Below are positions 1,420 to 64,000 of a stretch of 64,000 nucleotides of DNA, piece by piece. The stretch spans positions 2,356,001-2,420,000 of the forward strand of contig NZ_JAJJMO010000001.1 in the NCBI RefSeq assembly GCF_020905345.1, given 5' to 3'. Both the position numbers and the translations under genes were made by a program. Each line of letters starts with the position of its first letter. Positions within the stretch are counted from its first letter, which is position 1. The DNA is from Flavobacterium pisciphilum. Its GTDB lineage: Bacteria > Bacteroidota > Bacteroidia > Flavobacteriales > Flavobacteriaceae. The notes beneath the pieces were generated by a model that had not been told where the DNA came from, made no database searches, and saw only the letters and a list, made by a program, of their open reading frames with translations.

Positions 1420-1498
1420 AGAAATGCTTGCTGCCAGCTAATTTTCCCCGGGTTCAATACCTGTTAAAAATATTGTTTAATCCATCCTTACAATTCAG

Positions 1499-1575
1499 TT
1501 ATGAGTTATATGTTATGAGTTTAAGAGTTGCAAAAGCTATGAACTGAAAACTGTGAACTGAAAACTAAAAAGTTC
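1499..1575. repeat. Degenerate period-7 tandem repeat, second tract
   Basis: Heptamers TTATGAG, TTATATG, TTATGAG, TTTAAGA, then GAACTGA, AAACTGT, GAACTGA, AAACTAA run in register up to just before the RNase G start at 1592. Confidence 0.65.
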
Positions 1576-1591
1576 GGATAAAAATTTACAA

Positions 1592-3136
1592 ATGAATAAA
1601 GAATTAATCATTAGATCAAGTTCTGATTTCGTAGATTTTGCCTTATTAAAAGATGGAAAACTAATTGAATTACACAAAGAAGAAGAGAAAAGCAATTTTC
1701 AAGTTGGTGATATTTTTATAGCCAAGATAAGAAAACCAGTTGCTGGACTTAATGCTGCTTTTGTAAATGTAGGCTTCGAAAAAGATGCCTTTTTACATTA
1801 TCACGACTTAGGACCTAACTTAGCTTCTCAATTGAAATTCATAAAACTTGTAAGCGCAGGTAAATTAAAAGATTTCTCCCTAAAAACCTTTCAGTTTGAA
1901 AAAGAGATTGATAAAGACGGCACCATTACTGATATTTTAAGTGCTAATCAATCTGTTTTAGTACAAGTCGTAAAAGAACCAATATCTACTAAAGGTCCAA
2001 GAATTAGTGCAGAACTATCTTTGGCTGGACGTTTTATTGTTCTTGTTCCTTTTTCTGATCGCGTCTCTATTTCACAAAAAATAGAAGACAAAAAAGAAAA
2101 GGATCGTTTAAAAAAACTTGTATTATCGATCAAACCTAAAGGATTTGGTGTTATTGTTCGCACAGTAGCCGAAGGCAAAAACGTAGCCGAATTAGAAAAA
2201 GATTTGCAGAACCTGCTTAGCAGATGGACTGCAATGTGTAAAAAATTACCAACTGCTCATCATCCATCCAAAGTATTAGGAGAACTCAATAGAGCTTCTT
2301 CAATATTGAGAGATGTATTTAATGATACCTTTAGTGGTATTCAAATTGATGATGAAGAGTTGTACCATCAAACGAAGGATTATCTGCAAGAAATTGCACC
2401 TTCAAAACAATCGATTGTTAAGTTTTATCAATCAAATGATACTCCCATTTTTGAGAAATACAACATTGAGAGACAAATCAAAACTTCTTTTGGGAGAACT
2501 GTTTCGATGAGCAAAGGGGCTTATCTTATTATCGAACACACTGAAGCTTTACACGTTATAGACGTAAATAGCGGAAACCGTTCTAATAAGGCCACTAATC
2601 AAGAAGATACAGCCATGGAAGTTAATATGATTGCTGCTGCCGAAATCGCTAGACAATTGCGTTTACGTGATATGGGTGGAATAATCGTAGTTGATTTTAT
2701 TGATATGTCTAATCCTGAAAACAGGAAGATTTTGTTCGACTTCTTGCGAGAAGAAATGAGCGACGATAAAGCAAAACATAAAATCTTACCACCTAGCAAA
2801 TTTGGATTAGTTCAAATTACAAGACAAAGAGTAAGACCCGAAGTAAACATTAAAACTAGAGAAGAAAATCCTAACAATGAAAATGGCGAAATTGAAGCGC
2901 CAATTTTAATCATTGACAGAATCACTGCTGATTTAGAAAGACATTTAAAAACCCACAAAAAAGTTGTGCTTAATACACACCCATTTGTGGCTGCATACCT
3001 CAGTAAAGGTTTTCCATCAATACGTTCAAAATGGTTTTTTGAATATAAAAAATGGGTGAAAATCATACCTCGTGACGCTTACACGTATTTAGAATATCAT
3101 TTCTATGATAAAGACGGAAATGTTATTAAAGAATAA
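1592..3136 (+). CDS. rng: Ribonuclease G/E family endoribonuclease
   Basis: Cytoplasmic endoribonuclease that cuts single-stranded RNA and matures rRNA. At 514 residues it matches RNase G rather than the long RNase E. An S1-like RNA-binding region lies near residues 35-110 (GDIFIAKIRKPVAGLNAAFV). The metal-binding aspartates fall in HVIDVNSGNR (D324) and IIVVDFIDM (D368), spaced like D303/D346 of Escherichia coli RNase E. After the TRQRVRPEV segment, the position normally holding the zinc-link CPxCxGxG reads NPNNENGEIE (about residues 426-435), so both cysteines are missing. A terminator follows the stop. Confidence 0.95.
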   Translation: MNKELIIRSSSDFVDFALLKDGKLIELHKEEEKSNFQVGDIFIAKIRKPVAGLNAAFVNVGFEKDAFLHYHDLGPNLASQLKFIKLVSAGKLKDFSLKTFQFEKEIDKDGTITDILSANQSVLVQVVKEPISTKGPRISAELSLAGRFIVLVPFSDRVSISQKIEDKKEKDRLKKLVLSIKPKGFGVIVRTVAEGKNVAELEKDLQNLLSRWTAMCKKLPTAHHPSKVLGELNRASSILRDVFNDTFSGIQIDDEELYHQTKDYLQEIAPSKQSIVKFYQSNDTPIFEKYNIERQIKTSFGRTVSMSKGAYLIIEHTEALHVIDVNSGNRSNKATNQEDTAMEVNMIAAAEIARQLRLRDMGGIIVVDFIDMSNPENRKILFDFLREEMSDDKAKHKILPPSKFGLVQITRQRVRPEVNIKTREENPNNENGEIEAPILIIDRITADLERHLKTHKKVVLNTHPFVAAYLSKGFPSIRSKWFFEYKKWVKIIPRDAYTYLEYHFYDKDGNVIKE

Positions 3137-35582: not shown

Positions 35583-35690
35583 AATGCCTCTAGCCCAGAT
35601 GGGAGCGGCATCCTTTTTATCTGCTTTTTTGCGGATAAAAAGATATAGCAGACAGCTGGAAAAACTCCTTCTGTCGACTATGCTCAAGAT
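35583..35690. repeat. Dispersed intergenic repeat, copy 1
   Basis: Contains TAGCCC near its left end, a hairpin (TTTTTATCTGC facing GCGGATAAAAA) and the segment ATATAGCAGACAGCTGGAA (35643-35661). A second copy lies at 40798-40920, sharing 17 of 19 bases in that segment and the same hairpin-then-segment order. Confidence 0.6.
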
Positions 35691-40920: not shown

Positions 40921-41023
40921 GGCAAAATGCGCCAATAATTCGCTGCTGATACTGAAATTAGCTCAGTTACATATCGATAAGTTTGTCAAGAAAAGTTTTG
41001 AGAAATACATTGCTGTATTATGT

Positions 41024-41132
41024 GTTATCTATCTTTAATACTATGAATGTATAAAGTAGAATGTAGCACCTTCTTTATGATAAAGGGTTGCTAAGGTTTC
41101 AATGGGTCTATCCCTCCGCCTTTCGTGATAAC
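41024..41132 (-). ncRNA. SAM-I (S-box) riboswitch of metH
   Basis: Read on the minus strand: GTTATC, GAAAGGCGGAGGGAT, AGACCCATTGAAACC, TTAGCAACCC, an insertion hairpin, then AAGGTGCTACATTCTAC and GATAAC closing P1. These are the conserved S-box blocks (AGGG..., GAAxCC, GCAACC, GGTGCTAxxTTC) in order. Rising SAM should switch off metH and probably metF. The 300-base stretch to the start codon contains a dispersed repeat with a hairpin, and the expression platform is not clear. Confidence 0.95.
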
Positions 41133-41155
41133 TTTCAATAAATATATGAACGCTG

Positions 41156-58966: not shown

Positions 58967-59015
58967 GGAAATATTAAAAAGAAAAAACTAGAGCTAGGCT
59001 AGAGAAATTCTTTGT

Positions 59016-59119
59016 GTTATCTTTCCACGTTGGGCGTGGTAGAATGCAGCACCTTCTTCGATTTATCGAAGGGTTGCTAAGGATTCATAGGGTCTAATCC
59101 CTCGTCCTTTCTTTATAAC
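59016..59119 (-). ncRNA. SAM-I (S-box) riboswitch of metX-thrA
   Basis: On the minus strand: GTTAT, AAAGAAAGGACGAGGGATT, AGACCCTATGAATCC, TTAGCAACCC, a CTTCGATaaATCGAAG hairpin, AAGGTGCTGCATTCTACC, a CCACG..CGTGG hairpin, AAAGATAAC. These are the S-box conserved blocks and P1-P4 pairings. Only 50 bases remain to the metX start, holding a short CTAG-rich hairpin and a T-run (about 58970-58996) that could be the terminator. Confidence 0.95.
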
Positions 59120-59148
59120 ATTTCAATACGTTTTTGAACTTAACGGCA

Positions 59149-59309: not shown

Positions 59310-59513
59310 TTAAATAAATAAGGTTTCATTCTCTGTAGAATACATCAAGAAAAGCAAAGAATTAGGTGCTTTTTTTCCTGCAGTCTCATCTGTAGTTTCC
59401 ATGCCAAATCTTGAATCTGCCAATTCATTTGTTGTTTGGATGATTGTACTTTTTTTAGTTCTAAAGAATTTAAAGAATCCGAACCTTTTTGCTAAGTAAT
59501 TTTGAGTGCTCAT
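59310..59513 (-). CDS. Small protein A (67 residues), member of a pair with 62750-62938
   Basis: A 67-residue protein with no signal or membrane helix. Its basic, Phe-rich N terminus (RFGFFKFFRTKK) leads to an acidic linker and a C-terminal NSLLFLMYSTENETLFI. The last 17 residues closely match those of the protein at 62750-62938 (NSLLFQMYAHEDEDLFI), with both stops at the same place, while codons differ, which is strong evidence that both are real proteins. It lies after an attenuator-like leader (59584-59693) and before the SAM-I riboswitch. The function is unknown. Confidence 0.65.
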   Translation of the reverse strand: MSTQNYLAKRFGFFKFFRTKKSTIIQTTNELADSRFGMETTDETAGKKAPNSLLFLMYSTENETLFI

Positions 59514-59583: not shown

Positions 59584-59620
59584 TAAAAAAACCCTTTTGG
59601 AAATTATACCAAAAGGGTTT
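59584..59620 (-). terminator. Terminator of leader A
   Basis: Minus-strand AAACCCTTTTGG / CCAAAAGGGTTT stem with loop TATAATTT and a T-run of seven. It precedes small protein A by 70 bases, so it would act as an attenuator rather than a gene end. Its 5' arm CTTTTGG can instead pair with CCAAAAG at 59642-59648. Confidence 0.85.
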
Positions 59621-59651
59621 AAGTCGTTTGAACTTATTATACTTTTGGAAA

Positions 59652-59693
59652 TCAATGGGTGCGTGCGCAAATAAGCGCGACATTCTGCATCAT
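59652..59693 (-). CDS. Leader peptide A, 13 residues
   Basis: Short ORF MMQNVALICARTH ending TGA, three bases before CCAAAAG (59642-59648). It aligns with the last 13 residues of leader peptide B (MMRMCIPICYCQK): MM start, IC at positions 8-9, same length. It has one Cys and one non-initiator Met, so the control-codon content is weaker. Being so short, its reality rests on the paralogous arrangement. Confidence 0.5.
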   Translation of the reverse strand: MMQNVALICARTH

Positions 59694-59765
59694 CTTAAAC
59701 TTCGAGTTATAATTCATTTTGATATTATTTTTTATTTTAAAAAATTTCAATATTTATATTATCCA

Positions 59766-59806
59766 AAAAAAAAAGCCCCCAAGATTATTGGAAGGCTTTG
59801 CTATAT
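59766..59806 (-). terminator. Terminator-like hairpin not attached to an ORF
   Basis: Minus-strand AAAGCC-T-TCCAA faces TTGG-GGGCTTT with a run of ten T. Lies 360 bases after the nearest upstream gene, whose own terminator is at 60129-60157. Confidence 0.6.
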
Positions 59807-60128
59807 ATACTGTATAGATATAATTCTAAGCAACAGACTTCCCAACGGATTTCTCCGACATGACCTTAATCGTTTTACAAATATTAAAATTCATCTTAAT
59901 TGGTATCTTTTTGGTTTAACAAATATGCAACATATTTTCGGATTAACCAAGCCGGAACCCTTATTTTAATGGTAAAATCACGTTAAATTTGCATTAAAAA
60001 ACAAAAAAACGACGAAATGTTATTTTTTAACGACTAAATGCATCTCAATAGGCTATAAATTTAGCCTTCAGCGATTTAAAAACCCCTCTACTAAACATGA
60101 ATTTCAAAGAACATCAAACTTTAAATCA

Positions 60129-60165: not shown

Positions 60166-61266
60166 CTAAGCCCAAATAGCTTCTTTATTTTTTATCTTTT
60201 CGGCAACTTTTAGAATGTCTGTTATAACTCCTCTGGCTATAGCTTCTCTTCCTGCGGCTGCACTTTGAATAACTATCGGAATGTTTCCGTAAGATTGTGT
60301 ATAAATTTCAAAAACTGTATCTGATCCTTTTAATTGTCCAATTGCCGTTTTGGTAGATTCTGAAACTAATTTTACCTCTAGTTTATTATCTAAAACATTA
60401 TACTCCCCAACATATCTTAAGACATGATTATCGGCCTGTGTGATTTTTGCAATTTTAAAAGACTTATCCAATACCTCTTTATTGAGTACTCGTTTTGTTT
60501 TTGCATTTATATCATATTGATTGTGATCTAAAATCGGTGTAGTTTTTATATCTGAGAATTCAAAATCCTTCCCAATCTCTCTAATTAGAATAAGTAGTTT
60601 CTCTGCCACATCATTACCTGATAAATCTCTCTCATAATCAGAGGTTATTAGTTGTAATTTTTCGGCATCTTTTAACACCTCTGAAAAACAAGTTTCTTCC
60701 GACGAAAATCGATTAAAAACATAACTTAATGAATCTGAAAAAACACCTCTTATTTTGGTTATTTTCTCTCCCGAATTGTACAAATCTCTAATTGTTTGCA
60801 ATACTGGGAAACCAGTATCTACAGAGGTCTCATACAAAAACTCTTTATCGTATTTTTTAAGGTTCTCTCTTAATTCTTTATAAAAATTAATTGGCAATGT
60901 ATTGGCTTTTTTATTTACTGCCACGATATTAAATCCGTTTTGGATTAATGGAATATAATGATCTACCAATTCATCGCTTGCAGTTGCATCTACAGCAATT
61001 AAGTTTTCGAATGCATTTTCTTTTGCAAAAGCAATAATATCCTCTACTTTAAATGGAATAGCAAGATGTACAAAATTAGCTTCCCATGCATTCTCTGCCC
61101 CTTCCTTTTCAAAAAACGCCAATGTTGAATTGGTTATGATAGGAAATCTCAAATCAATGCTTTTATTTTCGCTAAAAAATGCTTGGCTTTCGATTATCTG
61201 ATTTATTAATGTACTTCCAATATTTCCTATTCCAAAAAGGATGATATTTATTTTAAGCTTTGACAT
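60166..61266 (-). CDS. Homoserine dehydrogenase-like protein with altered active site
   Basis: 366 residues from MSKLKINIILFGIGNIG at 61266 (an upstream ATG at 61326 adds 20 residues). It is a stand-alone relative of the dehydrogenase half of ThrA. The NAD-binding GIGNIG is intact, and D219 and K223 (equivalent to the yeast Hom6 catalytic pair) are kept, but the glutamate at 208 is threonine (TSDYERD against EPDPRED), GVFSGTLSY is GVFSDSLSY, and QGAGAGSA is QSAAAGRE. Reduced or changed activity is likely. It follows metY by 69 bases and is probably cotranscribed. Confidence 0.85.
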   Translation of the reverse strand: MSKLKINIILFGIGNIGSTLINQIIESQAFFSENKSIDLRFPIITNSTLAFFEKEGAENAWEANFVHLAIPFKVEDIIAFAKENAFENLIAVDATASDELVDHYIPLIQNGFNIVAVNKKANTLPINFYKELRENLKKYDKEFLYETSVDTGFPVLQTIRDLYNSGEKITKIRGVFSDSLSYVFNRFSSEETCFSEVLKDAEKLQLITSDYERDLSGNDVAEKLLILIREIGKDFEFSDIKTTPILDHNQYDINAKTKRVLNKEVLDKSFKIAKITQADNHVLRYVGEYNVLDNKLEVKLVSESTKTAIGQLKGSDTVFEIYTQSYGNIPIVIQSAAAGREAIARGVITDILKVAEKIKNKEAIWA

Positions 61267-61394: not shown

Positions 61395-62687
61395 TTATGC
61401 TAATTGAGCACTTTTTATATTTTTGAAAACCGCTTGTAAATCGGCTATTAAATCATCGATATCTTCAATTCCTACTGAAAGTCGAATCAAATCTTTTGAA
61501 ACTCCTGTTGAAGCTTGTTCTTCTTCTGATAATTGTTGGTGCGTTGTACTAGCTGGGTGGATAATTAATGACTTGGTATCTCCAATATTTGCCAGAAGCG
61601 AGAATAGCTTAGTTTCATCAGCTACTTTTTTGGCAGCTTCAAAACCTCCTTTTAATCCAAAAGTGATAATTCCACTTTGTCCTTTTGGTAAATATTTCTG
61701 TCCTAAGTCATAATATTTATTTGATTTTAAACCTGGATAATTTACCCAAACTACATCATCTTGTAATTCTAGCCAAGATGCCAATGCCAATGCGTTTTCG
61801 CTATGCTTCTTAATACGAATTGGCAACGTCTCTAATCCTTGAATAATCTGGAAAGCATTAAACGGGCTCAATGCCGAACCAAAATCACGCAATCCTTCTA
61901 TACGTGCTTTGGCTATAAATGCAGCATTTCCTAATACTTCATTATATATTAATCCGTGGTAACCTGCAGATGGTTCTGTAAATTCAGGAAATTTACCGTT
62001 TGCCCAATCAAAAGTACCTGCATCGATTATTGCTCCTCCTAAAGACGTTCCATTTCCTGAAATATATTTAGTCAATGAATGAATTACAATATTTGCTCCA
62101 TATTCAATCGGATTAAGTAAATAGGGAGTTGGCACTGTATTATCGACTATAAATGGCACTTTAAATGCTTTGGCTTCTGTCGAAATTGCTTTTAAATCCA
62201 GTACATCTAATTTTGGATTCCCTAATGACTCTACAAAAAACACTCTGGTATTTTCCTTTGCCGCTTTGGTAAAATTTTCTGCTTTTGATGGATCTACAAA
62301 TGTGGTTGTAATTCCTAATCTTGGCAAAGTAACTTTTAATAAATTATAAGTTCCTCCATATAGACTATTCGAAGCTACGATATGATCTCCTGCTTTTAGT
62401 AAGGTTAACAAAGTCGTTGCAATTGCCGATGCTCCTGATGCTGTAACAACAGCTCCAATACCTCCTTCTAATGCTGCCAAACGTTGTTCTAAAACATCAT
62501 TTGTTGGGTTGTTTAGTCTTGTGTATATAAAACCTGCTTCGGCAAGACTAAATAAATTGGACGCATGATCTGAGTTATTAAAAACATAAGAAGATGTTTG
62601 ATAAATTGGAACAGCTCGTGTACTTCCATTTTTAGTAACGTCATGTCCTGCGTGTAGTGCGTTTGTTGCAAATTTTTGTGTGCTCAT
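61395..62687 (-). CDS. metY: O-acetylhomoserine sulfhydrylase (aminocarboxypropyltransferase)
   Basis: 430 residues of the trans-sulfuration PLP family. MSTQKFATNALHAGHD, TSSYVFNNSDHASNLF, YTRLNNPTNDVLEQRLAALEGG and the Schiff-base SLTKYISGNGTSLGGAI are MetY-specific, and the protein is longer than MetZ, as expected. It condenses O-acetylhomoserine with sulfide to homocysteine, the direct sulfhydrylation route. It sits downstream of the Met/Cys-rich leader peptide, its terminator and small protein B, so it is the likely target of attenuation. Confidence 0.95.
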   Translation of the reverse strand: MSTQKFATNALHAGHDVTKNGSTRAVPIYQTSSYVFNNSDHASNLFSLAEAGFIYTRLNNPTNDVLEQRLAALEGGIGAVVTASGASAIATTLLTLLKAGDHIVASNSLYGGTYNLLKVTLPRLGITTTFVDPSKAENFTKAAKENTRVFFVESLGNPKLDVLDLKAISTEAKAFKVPFIVDNTVPTPYLLNPIEYGANIVIHSLTKYISGNGTSLGGAIIDAGTFDWANGKFPEFTEPSAGYHGLIYNEVLGNAAFIAKARIEGLRDFGSALSPFNAFQIIQGLETLPIRIKKHSENALALASWLELQDDVVWVNYPGLKSNKYYDLGQKYLPKGQSGIITFGLKGGFEAAKKVADETKLFSLLANIGDTKSLIIHPASTTHQQLSEEEQASTGVSKDLIRLSVGIEDIDDLIADLQAVFKNIKSAQLA

Positions 62688-62749: not shown

Positions 62750-62938
62750 TCATATAAAAAGATCTTCGTCTTCGTGAGCATACATTTGAAACAATAATGA
62801 ATTTGATTCGCTTGAATATAATTCTCCTTTTATTTCGACTGTACCAACTCCTTTATTTTGTATTATGCTGAAATCTCTTTTGAAATATGTCTTTAATAAT
62901 GACTGAATTGTTTTTGAAATTATATGTAGTGTTTTCAT
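62750..62938 (-). CDS. Small protein B (62 residues), paired with 59310-59513
   Basis: 62 residues without signal peptide. Basic N-terminal half (KTIQSLLKTYFKRDFSIIQNKG), a GTVEIKGELYSSES segment, then NSLLFQMYAHEDEDLFI shared with small protein A. It begins 22 bases after the attenuator terminator and ends 62 bases before metY, so it is the first gene expressed when the terminator is bypassed. I do not recognise the family. A regulatory or metY-partner role is only a guess. Confidence 0.7.
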   Translation of the reverse strand: MKTLHIISKTIQSLLKTYFKRDFSIIQNKGVGTVEIKGELYSSESNSLLFQMYAHEDEDLFI

Positions 62939-62960: not shown

Positions 62961-62998
62961 TAAAAAAAAGCCCTTTCGGATGGCTACCAAAAGGGCTT
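62961..62998 (-). terminator. Terminator of leader B (attenuator of metY)
   Basis: Minus-strand AAGCCCTTTTGG / CCGAAAGGGCTT stem (one G-U pair), seven-base loop, then a run of eight or nine T. It lies before small protein B and metY. Its 5' arm CTTTTGG-TAGC can pair with GCTA..CCAAAAG (63033-63046). Confidence 0.9.
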
Positions 62999-63029
62999 AT
63001 AGTTCTAACTATAACAAAGATTTAATCTT

Positions 63030-63086
63030 TCACTTTTGGCAATAGCAAATTGGGATGCACATACGCATCATACAACACATCATCAT
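63030..63086 (-). CDS. Met/Cys-rich leader peptide B, 18 residues
   Basis: ATG at 63086 to TGA at 63030. The peptide is MMMCCMMRMCIPICYCQK: 6 Met and 5 Cys out of 18, far above chance. The CCAAAAG anti-terminator strand (63033-63039) covers its last codons and stop. Ribosomes short of charged Met-tRNA or Cys-tRNA would stall upstream and free CCAAAAG to pair with the terminator's 5' arm, allowing metY expression. This is the classic attenuator layout. Confidence 0.75.
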   Translation of the reverse strand: MMMCCMMRMCIPICYCQK

Positions 63087-63183
63087 TTTATTTGCTATTG
63101 TATTCATTTTATAAATTGTTTTGTTTGTTTTTTTAATTCTACTAATTCTATAGAGTAAATGTAATTACTATATTTCTAACTAC

Positions 63184-63191
63184 CAAATCTA
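63184..63191 (-). promoter_or_regulatory. -7 element of the metY leader
   Basis: Minus-strand TAGATTTG fits TAnnTTTG; the start would be near 63177, giving a 5' leader of about 90 bases before leader peptide B. The nearest TTG upstream is only 14 bases away, shorter than usual. Confidence 0.45.
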
Positions 63192-63423: not shown

Positions 63424-64000
63424 TTATATTTTAAAACTCAAACGAGCGAAACCAAATCTTCCGTTTAATCCAAATTGCGATACGGCTCTAGAATAAGCAA
63501 ATTGATTTGCATTACTTAAATCTGTACTAGGTGCTGGTGACAATGTTGGTGTTGTATTTGTAAAAGCTGGTGTTGCTGGATTATTTCTATCTGGATAAAC
63601 ATCTCCAATATTATTAACCCCAAGCGTCAGTCTTAAATGTTCGTTTACCTGATATCCGAAAGATAAATCAGTAACTAATTTGCCACTATATTCTGGGTGC
63701 TCATAAACAGAAGAGAAACCATCCAAGTTTACATCTGTTGCTCCTGGATCAGTAACTTTTCCAAAATAACTGTTTCTTAAATAAATATCCAGTTTTTTAA
63801 TACTGAAAGTTGTCATTAAGTTGGCTTTTAATTTAGGAATTGCTTCTTCTAAATAAATTCTGCTTGACTCTGGGAAAAACGAATATTTATATGGATCTCC
63901 ACCTGCATTTATAATTGATTGTGGCACATTTAATTCTCCAACTCTTTTTGTCGTATTATAACTTAAAGCAAAATCATTTCTGATTGTGAAATCTTGGATA
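63424..64000 (-). CDS. TonB-dependent receptor, C-terminal part (5' end beyond window)
   Basis: The frame is open to the window edge, giving about 192 visible residues of the receptor C terminus; a GTG at 63927 is not a genuine start. Barrel features are NDFALSYNTTKRVG, KLDIYLRNSYFGKV, KLVTDLSFGYQVNEHLRLTLGV, NNIGDVYPDRNN, and the terminal FGLNGRFGFARLSFKI ending in an aromatic-rich beta strand for BAM recognition. NNIGDVYPD is the common TonB-receptor C-terminal motif. The ligand is unknown. Confidence 0.88.
   Translation of the reverse strand, partial: IQDFTIRNDFALSYNTTKRVGELNVPQSIINAGGDPYKYSFFPESSRIYLEEAIPKLKANLMTTFSIKKLDIYLRNSYFGKVTDPGATDVNLDGFSSVYEHPEYSGKLVTDLSFGYQVNEHLRLTLGVNNIGDVYPDRNNPATPAFTNTTPTLSPAPSTDLSNANQFAYSRAVSQFGLNGRFGFARLSFKI

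Follow-up and report, generated by a model that had tools for sequence, protein, structure and literature searches.

A leader rich in methionine and cysteine codons before metY of Flavobacterium pisciphilum: a probable ribosome-mediated transcription attenuator

The metY gene of Flavobacterium pisciphilum is preceded by a short open reading frame (ORF) rich in Met and Cys codons and by an intrinsic terminator whose 5′ arm can alternatively pair with the end of that ORF. On the strength of the sequence and its relatives, we consider it very likely (probability about 0.87) that this leader is a transcription attenuator of the ribosome-mediated trp/his type, which would sense the supply of Met, and probably of Cys, through tRNA charging. 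Control of methionine genes in bacteria is usually ascribed to repressors, SAM riboswitches, or T-boxes. The leader lies in the stretch of 64,000 nucleotides analyzed here (the window), to whose positions the coordinates refer.

On the minus strand, the order is TonB-dependent receptor, promoter-like sequence, leader ORF, terminator, small protein B, metY, and a homoserine dehydrogenase-like gene. Farther along the same strand lie two related units (59894-59765 and 59717-59584), small protein A, a SAM-I riboswitch, and metX. The individual features are the following.

63156..63187, minus strand: promoter-like pair, TTTG (63187-63184) and TACATTTA (63163-63156), 20 nt spacing; read in the sequence
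63138..63153, minus strand: CTATAGAATTAGTAGA, conserved motif by the presumed start site; from comparison of upstream regions
63030..63107, minus strand: predicted leader ORF, 25 codons plus stop, MNTIANKMMMCCMMRMCIPICYCQK; from reading frame, alignment, and codon content
63090..63100, minus strand: strand 1, CAATAGCAAAT; from folding and alignment
63057..63086, minus strand: codons 8 to 17 (MMMCCMMRMC), presumed control codons; from their folding position relative to strand 2
63033..63050, minus strand: strand 2, ATTTGCTATTG (pairs with strand 1), overlapping GCTATTGCCAAAAG (pairs with strand 3); from alignment and folding
62983..62997, minus strand: strand 3, terminator 5′ arm (AGCCCTTTTGG) and loop TAGC; from alignment
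62962..62979, minus strand: strand 4, terminator 3′ arm (CCGAAAGGGCT) and U-run; from alignment and hairpin folding
62750..62938, minus strand: small protein B, 62 amino acids (aa); ORF with no Pfam or NCBIfam match
61395..62687, minus strand: metY, O-acetylhomoserine sulfhydrylase (TIGR01326); family match
60166..61266, minus strand: homoserine dehydrogenase-like gene; family match
59765..59894, minus strand: type-1 family unit, ORF 59894-59826 (MNFNICKTIKVMSEKSVGKSVA) and terminator; model R2, E 5.6e-13
59584..59717, minus strand: related unit before small protein A, ORF 59717-59652 (MNYNSKFKMMQNVALICARTH) and terminator; model R1, E 9.5e-7
59310..59513, minus strand: small protein A, 67 aa; ORF
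59014..59121, minus strand: SAM-I riboswitch before metX (58966-57971); Rfam

The original prediction described an 18-residue ORF with 6 Met and 5 Cys. Reading of the minus strand confirmed this frame and its content (63086-63033 plus stop, MMMCCMMRMCIPICYCQK), but not its length: the full ORF runs from 63107 to 63030 and starts seven codons farther upstream. Its in-frame ATG at 63107 is kept in 15/15 aligned relatives and is a better start than 63086. With the start codon excluded, Met and Cys occupy 11 of 24 codons (binomial P, ~2e-8), the highest number among the 437 short ORFs of the window (15 to 45 aa, both strands), where the runner-up has 6. The maximum per short ORF was likewise 6 in each of five mononucleotide-shuffled windows, and the chance expectation is about 1. 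Moreover, a script located 21 terminators in the window, and only two of them follow a short ORF with at least 3 Met/Cys: those of the metY leader (11) and of the related unit at 59717 (3). Codon content and conservation of the frame thus point to a short ORF rich in codons of the pathway, which we predict to be translated.

As in trp-type attenuators, an intrinsic terminator stands between the leader and the first gene. It consists of AGCCCTTTTGG-TAGCCAT-CCGAAAGGGCT followed by a U-run (62997-62962, minus strand), and its hairpin of -17.1 kcal/mol confirms the terminator that had been noted ahead of the genes; the 211-nt leader region folds with a z of -4.6. The alternative pairing of the terminator 5′ arm with the end of the leader ORF, GCTA..CCAAAAG with CTTTTGG-TAGC, is present in the sequence exactly as described earlier. 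An 11-bp helix that did not figure in that description (1:2) joins the start and the end of the leader ORF (CAATAGCAAAT/ATTTGCTATTG).

The region ahead of the ORF, with the promoter-like TTTG/TAnATTTA (which we take to match the promoter consensus) and an A-rich stretch, recurs with small differences in 11 of 13 printed upstream regions, including that of the window. The conserved CTATnRAATTAGTAGA at 63138-63153, which in this genome also precedes two genes for SusC-like receptors, is possibly an operator or an element of the initial transcript. We rejected CTATNRAATTAGTAGA as a Met-specific operator: it occurs at 10 places of the same genome with at most one mismatch, 3 of them exact (the metY leader and two SusC-like receptors), and it is therefore not specific to Met genes.

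To place the leader among its relatives, we used a metY scan of named genomes, in which 517 candidates encoded relatives and the best 80 loci were taken; the closest named metY among those 80, from F. frigoritolerans, is 98% identical. By script, a locus was counted when a short ORF with at least 3 Met/Cys ended no more than 60 nt from a terminator and no more than 1 kb from metY. Such a unit lies upstream of metY in 81/81 loci (the 80 from the scan and the window), so the Met/Cys codons expected in orthologous leaders are indeed kept. Two units stand in tandem in 33 of the 81. Proximal leaders have a median of 11 Met/Cys (range, 3 to 14), well above the low threshold of 3. Among 72 distinct proximal peptides, Met makes up 18.9% and Cys 18.7% of residues, versus 1.6% and 0.6% in the long ORFs of the window.

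The leaders fall into two families. Type 2, with 76 proximal leaders, has CTTTTGG or a similar sequence as its arm; type 1, with 38 leaders, has CTCTGC or one of its relatives. Ahead of the last 8 residues, every one of the 76 type-2 leaders carries 2 or more Met and 2 or more Cys (medians, 5 and 3), and these last 8 residues are free of Met in 67/76; Met codons thus lie mostly upstream of strand 2. The order of residues is scrambled among 67 type-2 peptides, with pairwise identity as low as 14% (compare MNVTVKNMMMNFMMMHMMCCRMCTPCYQKLNT, MNNLQQKLMNKCNVKSMICTKSMMFICVC, and MKTIARKNMMCCSMMQMCIPTCCCQK), while Met/Cys content is kept. Two leaders (L071 and L099) have their tail in another reading frame and retain the Met/Cys run, and an MCC or CCxM core recurs in many. 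Inside the leader ORF, 3/3 gap events have a length of 3; from the stop codon on, 6 events have lengths of 1 to 3. Codon content that is kept while the peptide is scrambled is a clear trace of selection on codons. Some rows were left out, L001 and L013 before A1 (same loci as L002 and L003) and L109 (irregular) and L146 (missed by the script) before A3. An exact DNA pattern for MMMCCMM was found in 5/199 genus genomes and proved too strict as a search; covariance models were used instead. Model R1 matched 192/299 genus genomes at E 0.01, a count that includes weak rows and hence gives no frequency estimate.

We then compared the pairings across alignments. Among 15 aligned sequences, the terminator is 100% paired, and double changes occur at 4 pairs of helix 1:2. 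The metY antiterminator (2:3) is paired in 96.4% of cells and is nearly invariant; owing to this near-invariance, it displays no covariation in the 15-sequence alignment, and 353/500 shuffles pair equally well. The sister antiterminator of type 1, also 96.4% paired, has 13 double-change cells in a 33-sequence alignment and a covariation score of 0.290 (shuffled mean, 0.077; best slid, 0.086). Its terminator scores 0.278, with arms that covary with the antiterminator. Strands 2 and 3 occur as GCAGAG/CTCTGC, GCAGCG/CGCTGC, and GCAGGG/CCCTGC, and a fourth group has TGTGGG, with its partner shifted into the loop. Two of the five measures for the type-1 antiterminator were matched by some shuffles (62/500 and 11/500), and relatedness among the type-1 sequences limits what shuffles prove. 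Covariation was preferred over a per-sequence shuffle test of the 2:3 duplex, which is weak (45/114 leaders at ≤5/100). The pairing foreseen for orthologous leaders is therefore kept (96.4%), and its covariation is seen in the sister leader but not in the metY leader. These alignments argue for an antiterminator that shares the terminator 5′ arm, conserved before metY and covarying in the sister leader. Together, the 81/81 loci, the retained pairing, and the covariation in the sister leader support the attenuator reading of the metY leader.

For the folding model, the transcript ended at the terminator loop, and its 5′ part was hidden under an assumed ribosome footprint of 13 nt from the start of the A site. 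Helix 2:3 formed for all tested A-site codons up to 19 and was absent at codons 21, 23, 25, and 26. This places codons 8 to 17 on the read-through side and the Cys codons 21 and 23 on the termination side; since a ribosome at these last two Cys codons covers strand 2, they are probably not control codons. In the model, the control codons would be positioned such that a stalled ribosome frees strand 2 and a finished one covers it. Once strand 4 was included, 2:3 was less stable than the terminator in each of the three states tested, which means that antitermination has to be kinetic. In ribosome-free RNA before strand 4, 1:2 forms (0.88), and so does the 7-bp core of 2:3 (0.99). Because the two are compatible, 1:2 is a weak protector; it overlaps strand 2 only in part, and a ribosome-free transcript is thus not clearly forced to terminate.

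In the mechanism that we infer, RNA polymerase would start upstream of 63140 and be followed by a ribosome that translates the 25-codon leader; the signal would be tRNA charging. With ample Met-tRNA and Cys-tRNA, the ribosome would reach the stop codon and cover strand 2, the terminator (3:4) would form, and transcription would end. When charged tRNA is short, the ribosome would stall in MMMCCMMRMC and 2:3 would pair before strand 4 is made. This pairing would pre-empt the terminator, and small protein B, metY, and the homoserine dehydrogenase-like gene would be transcribed.

The same RNA switch could be operated by the peptide itself, either by binding a metal or a thiol reagent or by a nascent chain that arrests the ribosome when a ligand, for instance SAM, binds. 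Peptides rich in Met and Cys are able to bind soft metals, and the recurrent MCC or CCxM core would suit such a sensor. We nevertheless regard it as improbable, since the order of residues is not conserved among the 67 type-2 peptides (identity down to 14%), the tail frame differs in L071 and L099, and the associated genes are those of Met biosynthesis. A copper peptide in particular was rejected on the scrambled order and the nature of the genes. That the ORF is incidental to a translation-free RNA element, such as an unrecognized riboswitch for SAM, Met, or another ligand, strikes us as highly improbable: the RNA is strongly conserved around two small hairpins and the terminator, and SAM-I occupies the same place in other genera, but indels keep the reading frame, Met/Cys codons are enriched, and the leader has no Rfam match. 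At the gathering score, the Rfam scan of the window gave three matches, none of them a T-box, with SAM-I only at 59014-59121 and 41022-41134 and neither SAM-I nor SAM-II at the metY leader. The second SAM-I riboswitch precedes a homocysteine S-methyltransferase gene by some 300 nt, and a Flavo-1 RNA lies at 35588-35666.

We give even less credence to a chance ORF beside a terminator belonging to the TonB-dependent receptor gene. This receptor does lie upstream on the same strand, as one 948-aa ORF ending at 63424, but it is followed by an inverted repeat with an A/T run of its own at ~63350-63270, the unit recurs before metY in 81/81 loci, and the ORF has 11 Met/Cys versus ~1 by chance. Against the attenuator reading itself stands the unit at 59894, which is not Met/Cys-rich: after the start, ORF 59894-59826 has just one Cys and one Met.

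Ribosome-mediated attenuation, the reading that we prefer, was followed into other genera. In the family sample, 201/299 genomes have metY, and 199 of the 201 belong to other genera. Upstream regions were examined for 88 metY loci of Flavobacteriaceae outside the genus (L134-L221), which mostly have the most similar metY, with some rows skipped, and are not a random sample. Rfam tables place SAM-I directly upstream, on the metY strand, in 76 of these and SAM-II in 1 (L206). Met/Cys leaders precede metY in 9 (L141, L143, L145, L146, L150, L154, L161, L166, and L173). Neither riboswitch nor leader was found in 2, L159 (contig end) and L180; farther upstream, L180 shows a doubtful Met/Cys ORF with terminator. 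The leader scan is invalid for L136 and L159, both at contig ends. SAM-I and a leader were not seen together before metY among the 88 loci. L150, with its leader before metY, has SAM-I downstream, and 7 of 10 named Flavobacterium-type loci scanned with Rfam have SAM-I, always downstream of metY.

At E ≤1.5e-5, the gene-blind type-1 model R2 matched 25 genomes of the family sample that lie outside the genus, all 25 with a Met-rich leader ORF. The leader precedes metY in 22 of them and a MetX-like gene in 2 (L226 and L243); in the remaining case (L236), it is followed by a transposase-like ORF at a contig end. R2 had been built with 7 of these 25, and the other 18 include 15 before metY and 2 before metX. 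Among genera with a more distant metY, leaders are thus more frequent than one would judge from the 88 loci. At E 0.01, R2 matched 124/299 family and 41/296 phylum genomes, with many weak rows matching the terminator half of the model only. Among 10 inspected rows outside the family, 1 has a Met/Cys-rich ORF at the model start: L269, from another family of the phylum, where (at 1465-3013) MKQNKVNSAINTMMMAMCMCMNTYPPAEEIA and a terminator are followed first by an ORF ending CLMYCCCCC and next by a sulfate-binding protein gene.

The metY leader is one of a family of leaders. An own-genome search retrieved the following paralogue.

G000:C1:2422336-2422458, 2.3 kb past the window end: Met/Cys leader MKFTVNNMMSCMMPEYSAEILL and terminator

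It stands before the 948-aa TonB-dependent receptor gene that precedes metY, divergent from metK. A weaker paralogue, MMQCCHMKIPPCCRSCYCLYDTI with a terminator, precedes a glutamate dehydrogenase gene (G000:C1:1025776-1025896; L130), and a similar unit with a terminator was found in 1/39 other genomes searched. Within the window, the units at 59894-59765 and 59717-59584 stand in tandem before small protein A, and their peptides (MNFNICKTIKVMSEKSVGKSVA and MNYNSKFKMMQNVALICARTH) are poor in Met/Cys. Such a tandem pair sits before a second metY copy in L096. Small proteins A and B, which have no Pfam match, have a common LLFxMYxxExExLFI-like C-terminal end, and relatives of small protein A in other loci end in the same way. 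Used as an anchor, small protein B was found in 12/199 genomes, and the leader is thus independent of it.

We lean, by a narrow measure, toward a wider picture in which Met/Cys leader attenuators form a regulon of the Flavobacteriaceae. Its two sequence families, often in tandem, would read amino acid supply at the ribosome and swap with SAM-I before the same gene. Here, they would act before metY, before the TonB-dependent receptor divergent from metK, and before the small-protein gene by metX. One sulfur locus would then combine sensors of tRNA charging and of SAM, with tandem units as a two-step gate.

Leaders of the enterobacterial trp, his, thr, leu, ilv, and phe operons consist of a short ORF with runs of pathway codons, an overlapping antiterminator, and an intrinsic terminator before the biosynthetic operon. 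The metY leader has the same codon runs, overlapping antiterminator, and intrinsic terminator. It differs from them in that its codons are Met and Cys, its units are often in tandem, its helix 1:2 overlaps the antiterminator just in part, and its phylum is Bacteroidota. If confirmed, a trp-type Met/Cys attenuator would enlarge the classical set of attenuated pathways, and would do so in a phylum in which attenuation has been little studied. Our search of the main text of open-access papers, among them PMC7366714, PMC2965389, and PMC4833913, found no published description of a methionine leader attenuator. Strong clues of leader-peptide attenuation before amino acid operons have been described in Flavobacterium psychrophilum, of the same genus (PMC9723704); the main-text passages of that report name neither a Met/Cys leader nor metY (0 occurrences each of methionine and metY), and its Table S7 may list the element. 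Cys codons before a sulfur or Cys-tRNA gene are common to the metY leader, the cysteine leader ORFs of actinobacterial cys operons (PMC1262725), and uORFC-8-2, with tandem Cys codons, before cysS in Rhodobacterales (PMC8632094). Both belong to other phyla; as described in the passages seen, the mycobacterial cys leaders are without a conserved terminator and uORFC-8-2 has no reported Met run, unlike the metY leader. The 5′ untranslated region (UTR) of the Xanthomonas met operon likewise exerts feedback on Met genes, described as mainly translational, with no leader ORF reported in the passages concerned (PMC6230763). Finally, the SAM-I riboswitch (RF00162) holds the same position, directly before metY in 76/88 other-genus loci, and precedes metX in the window; unlike the metY leader, it is a SAM aptamer without an ORF. 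If our reading is correct, a small-molecule sensor and a translation sensor have been exchanged naturally before the same gene, which makes it testable when sensing SAM pays and when sensing the charged amino acid does.
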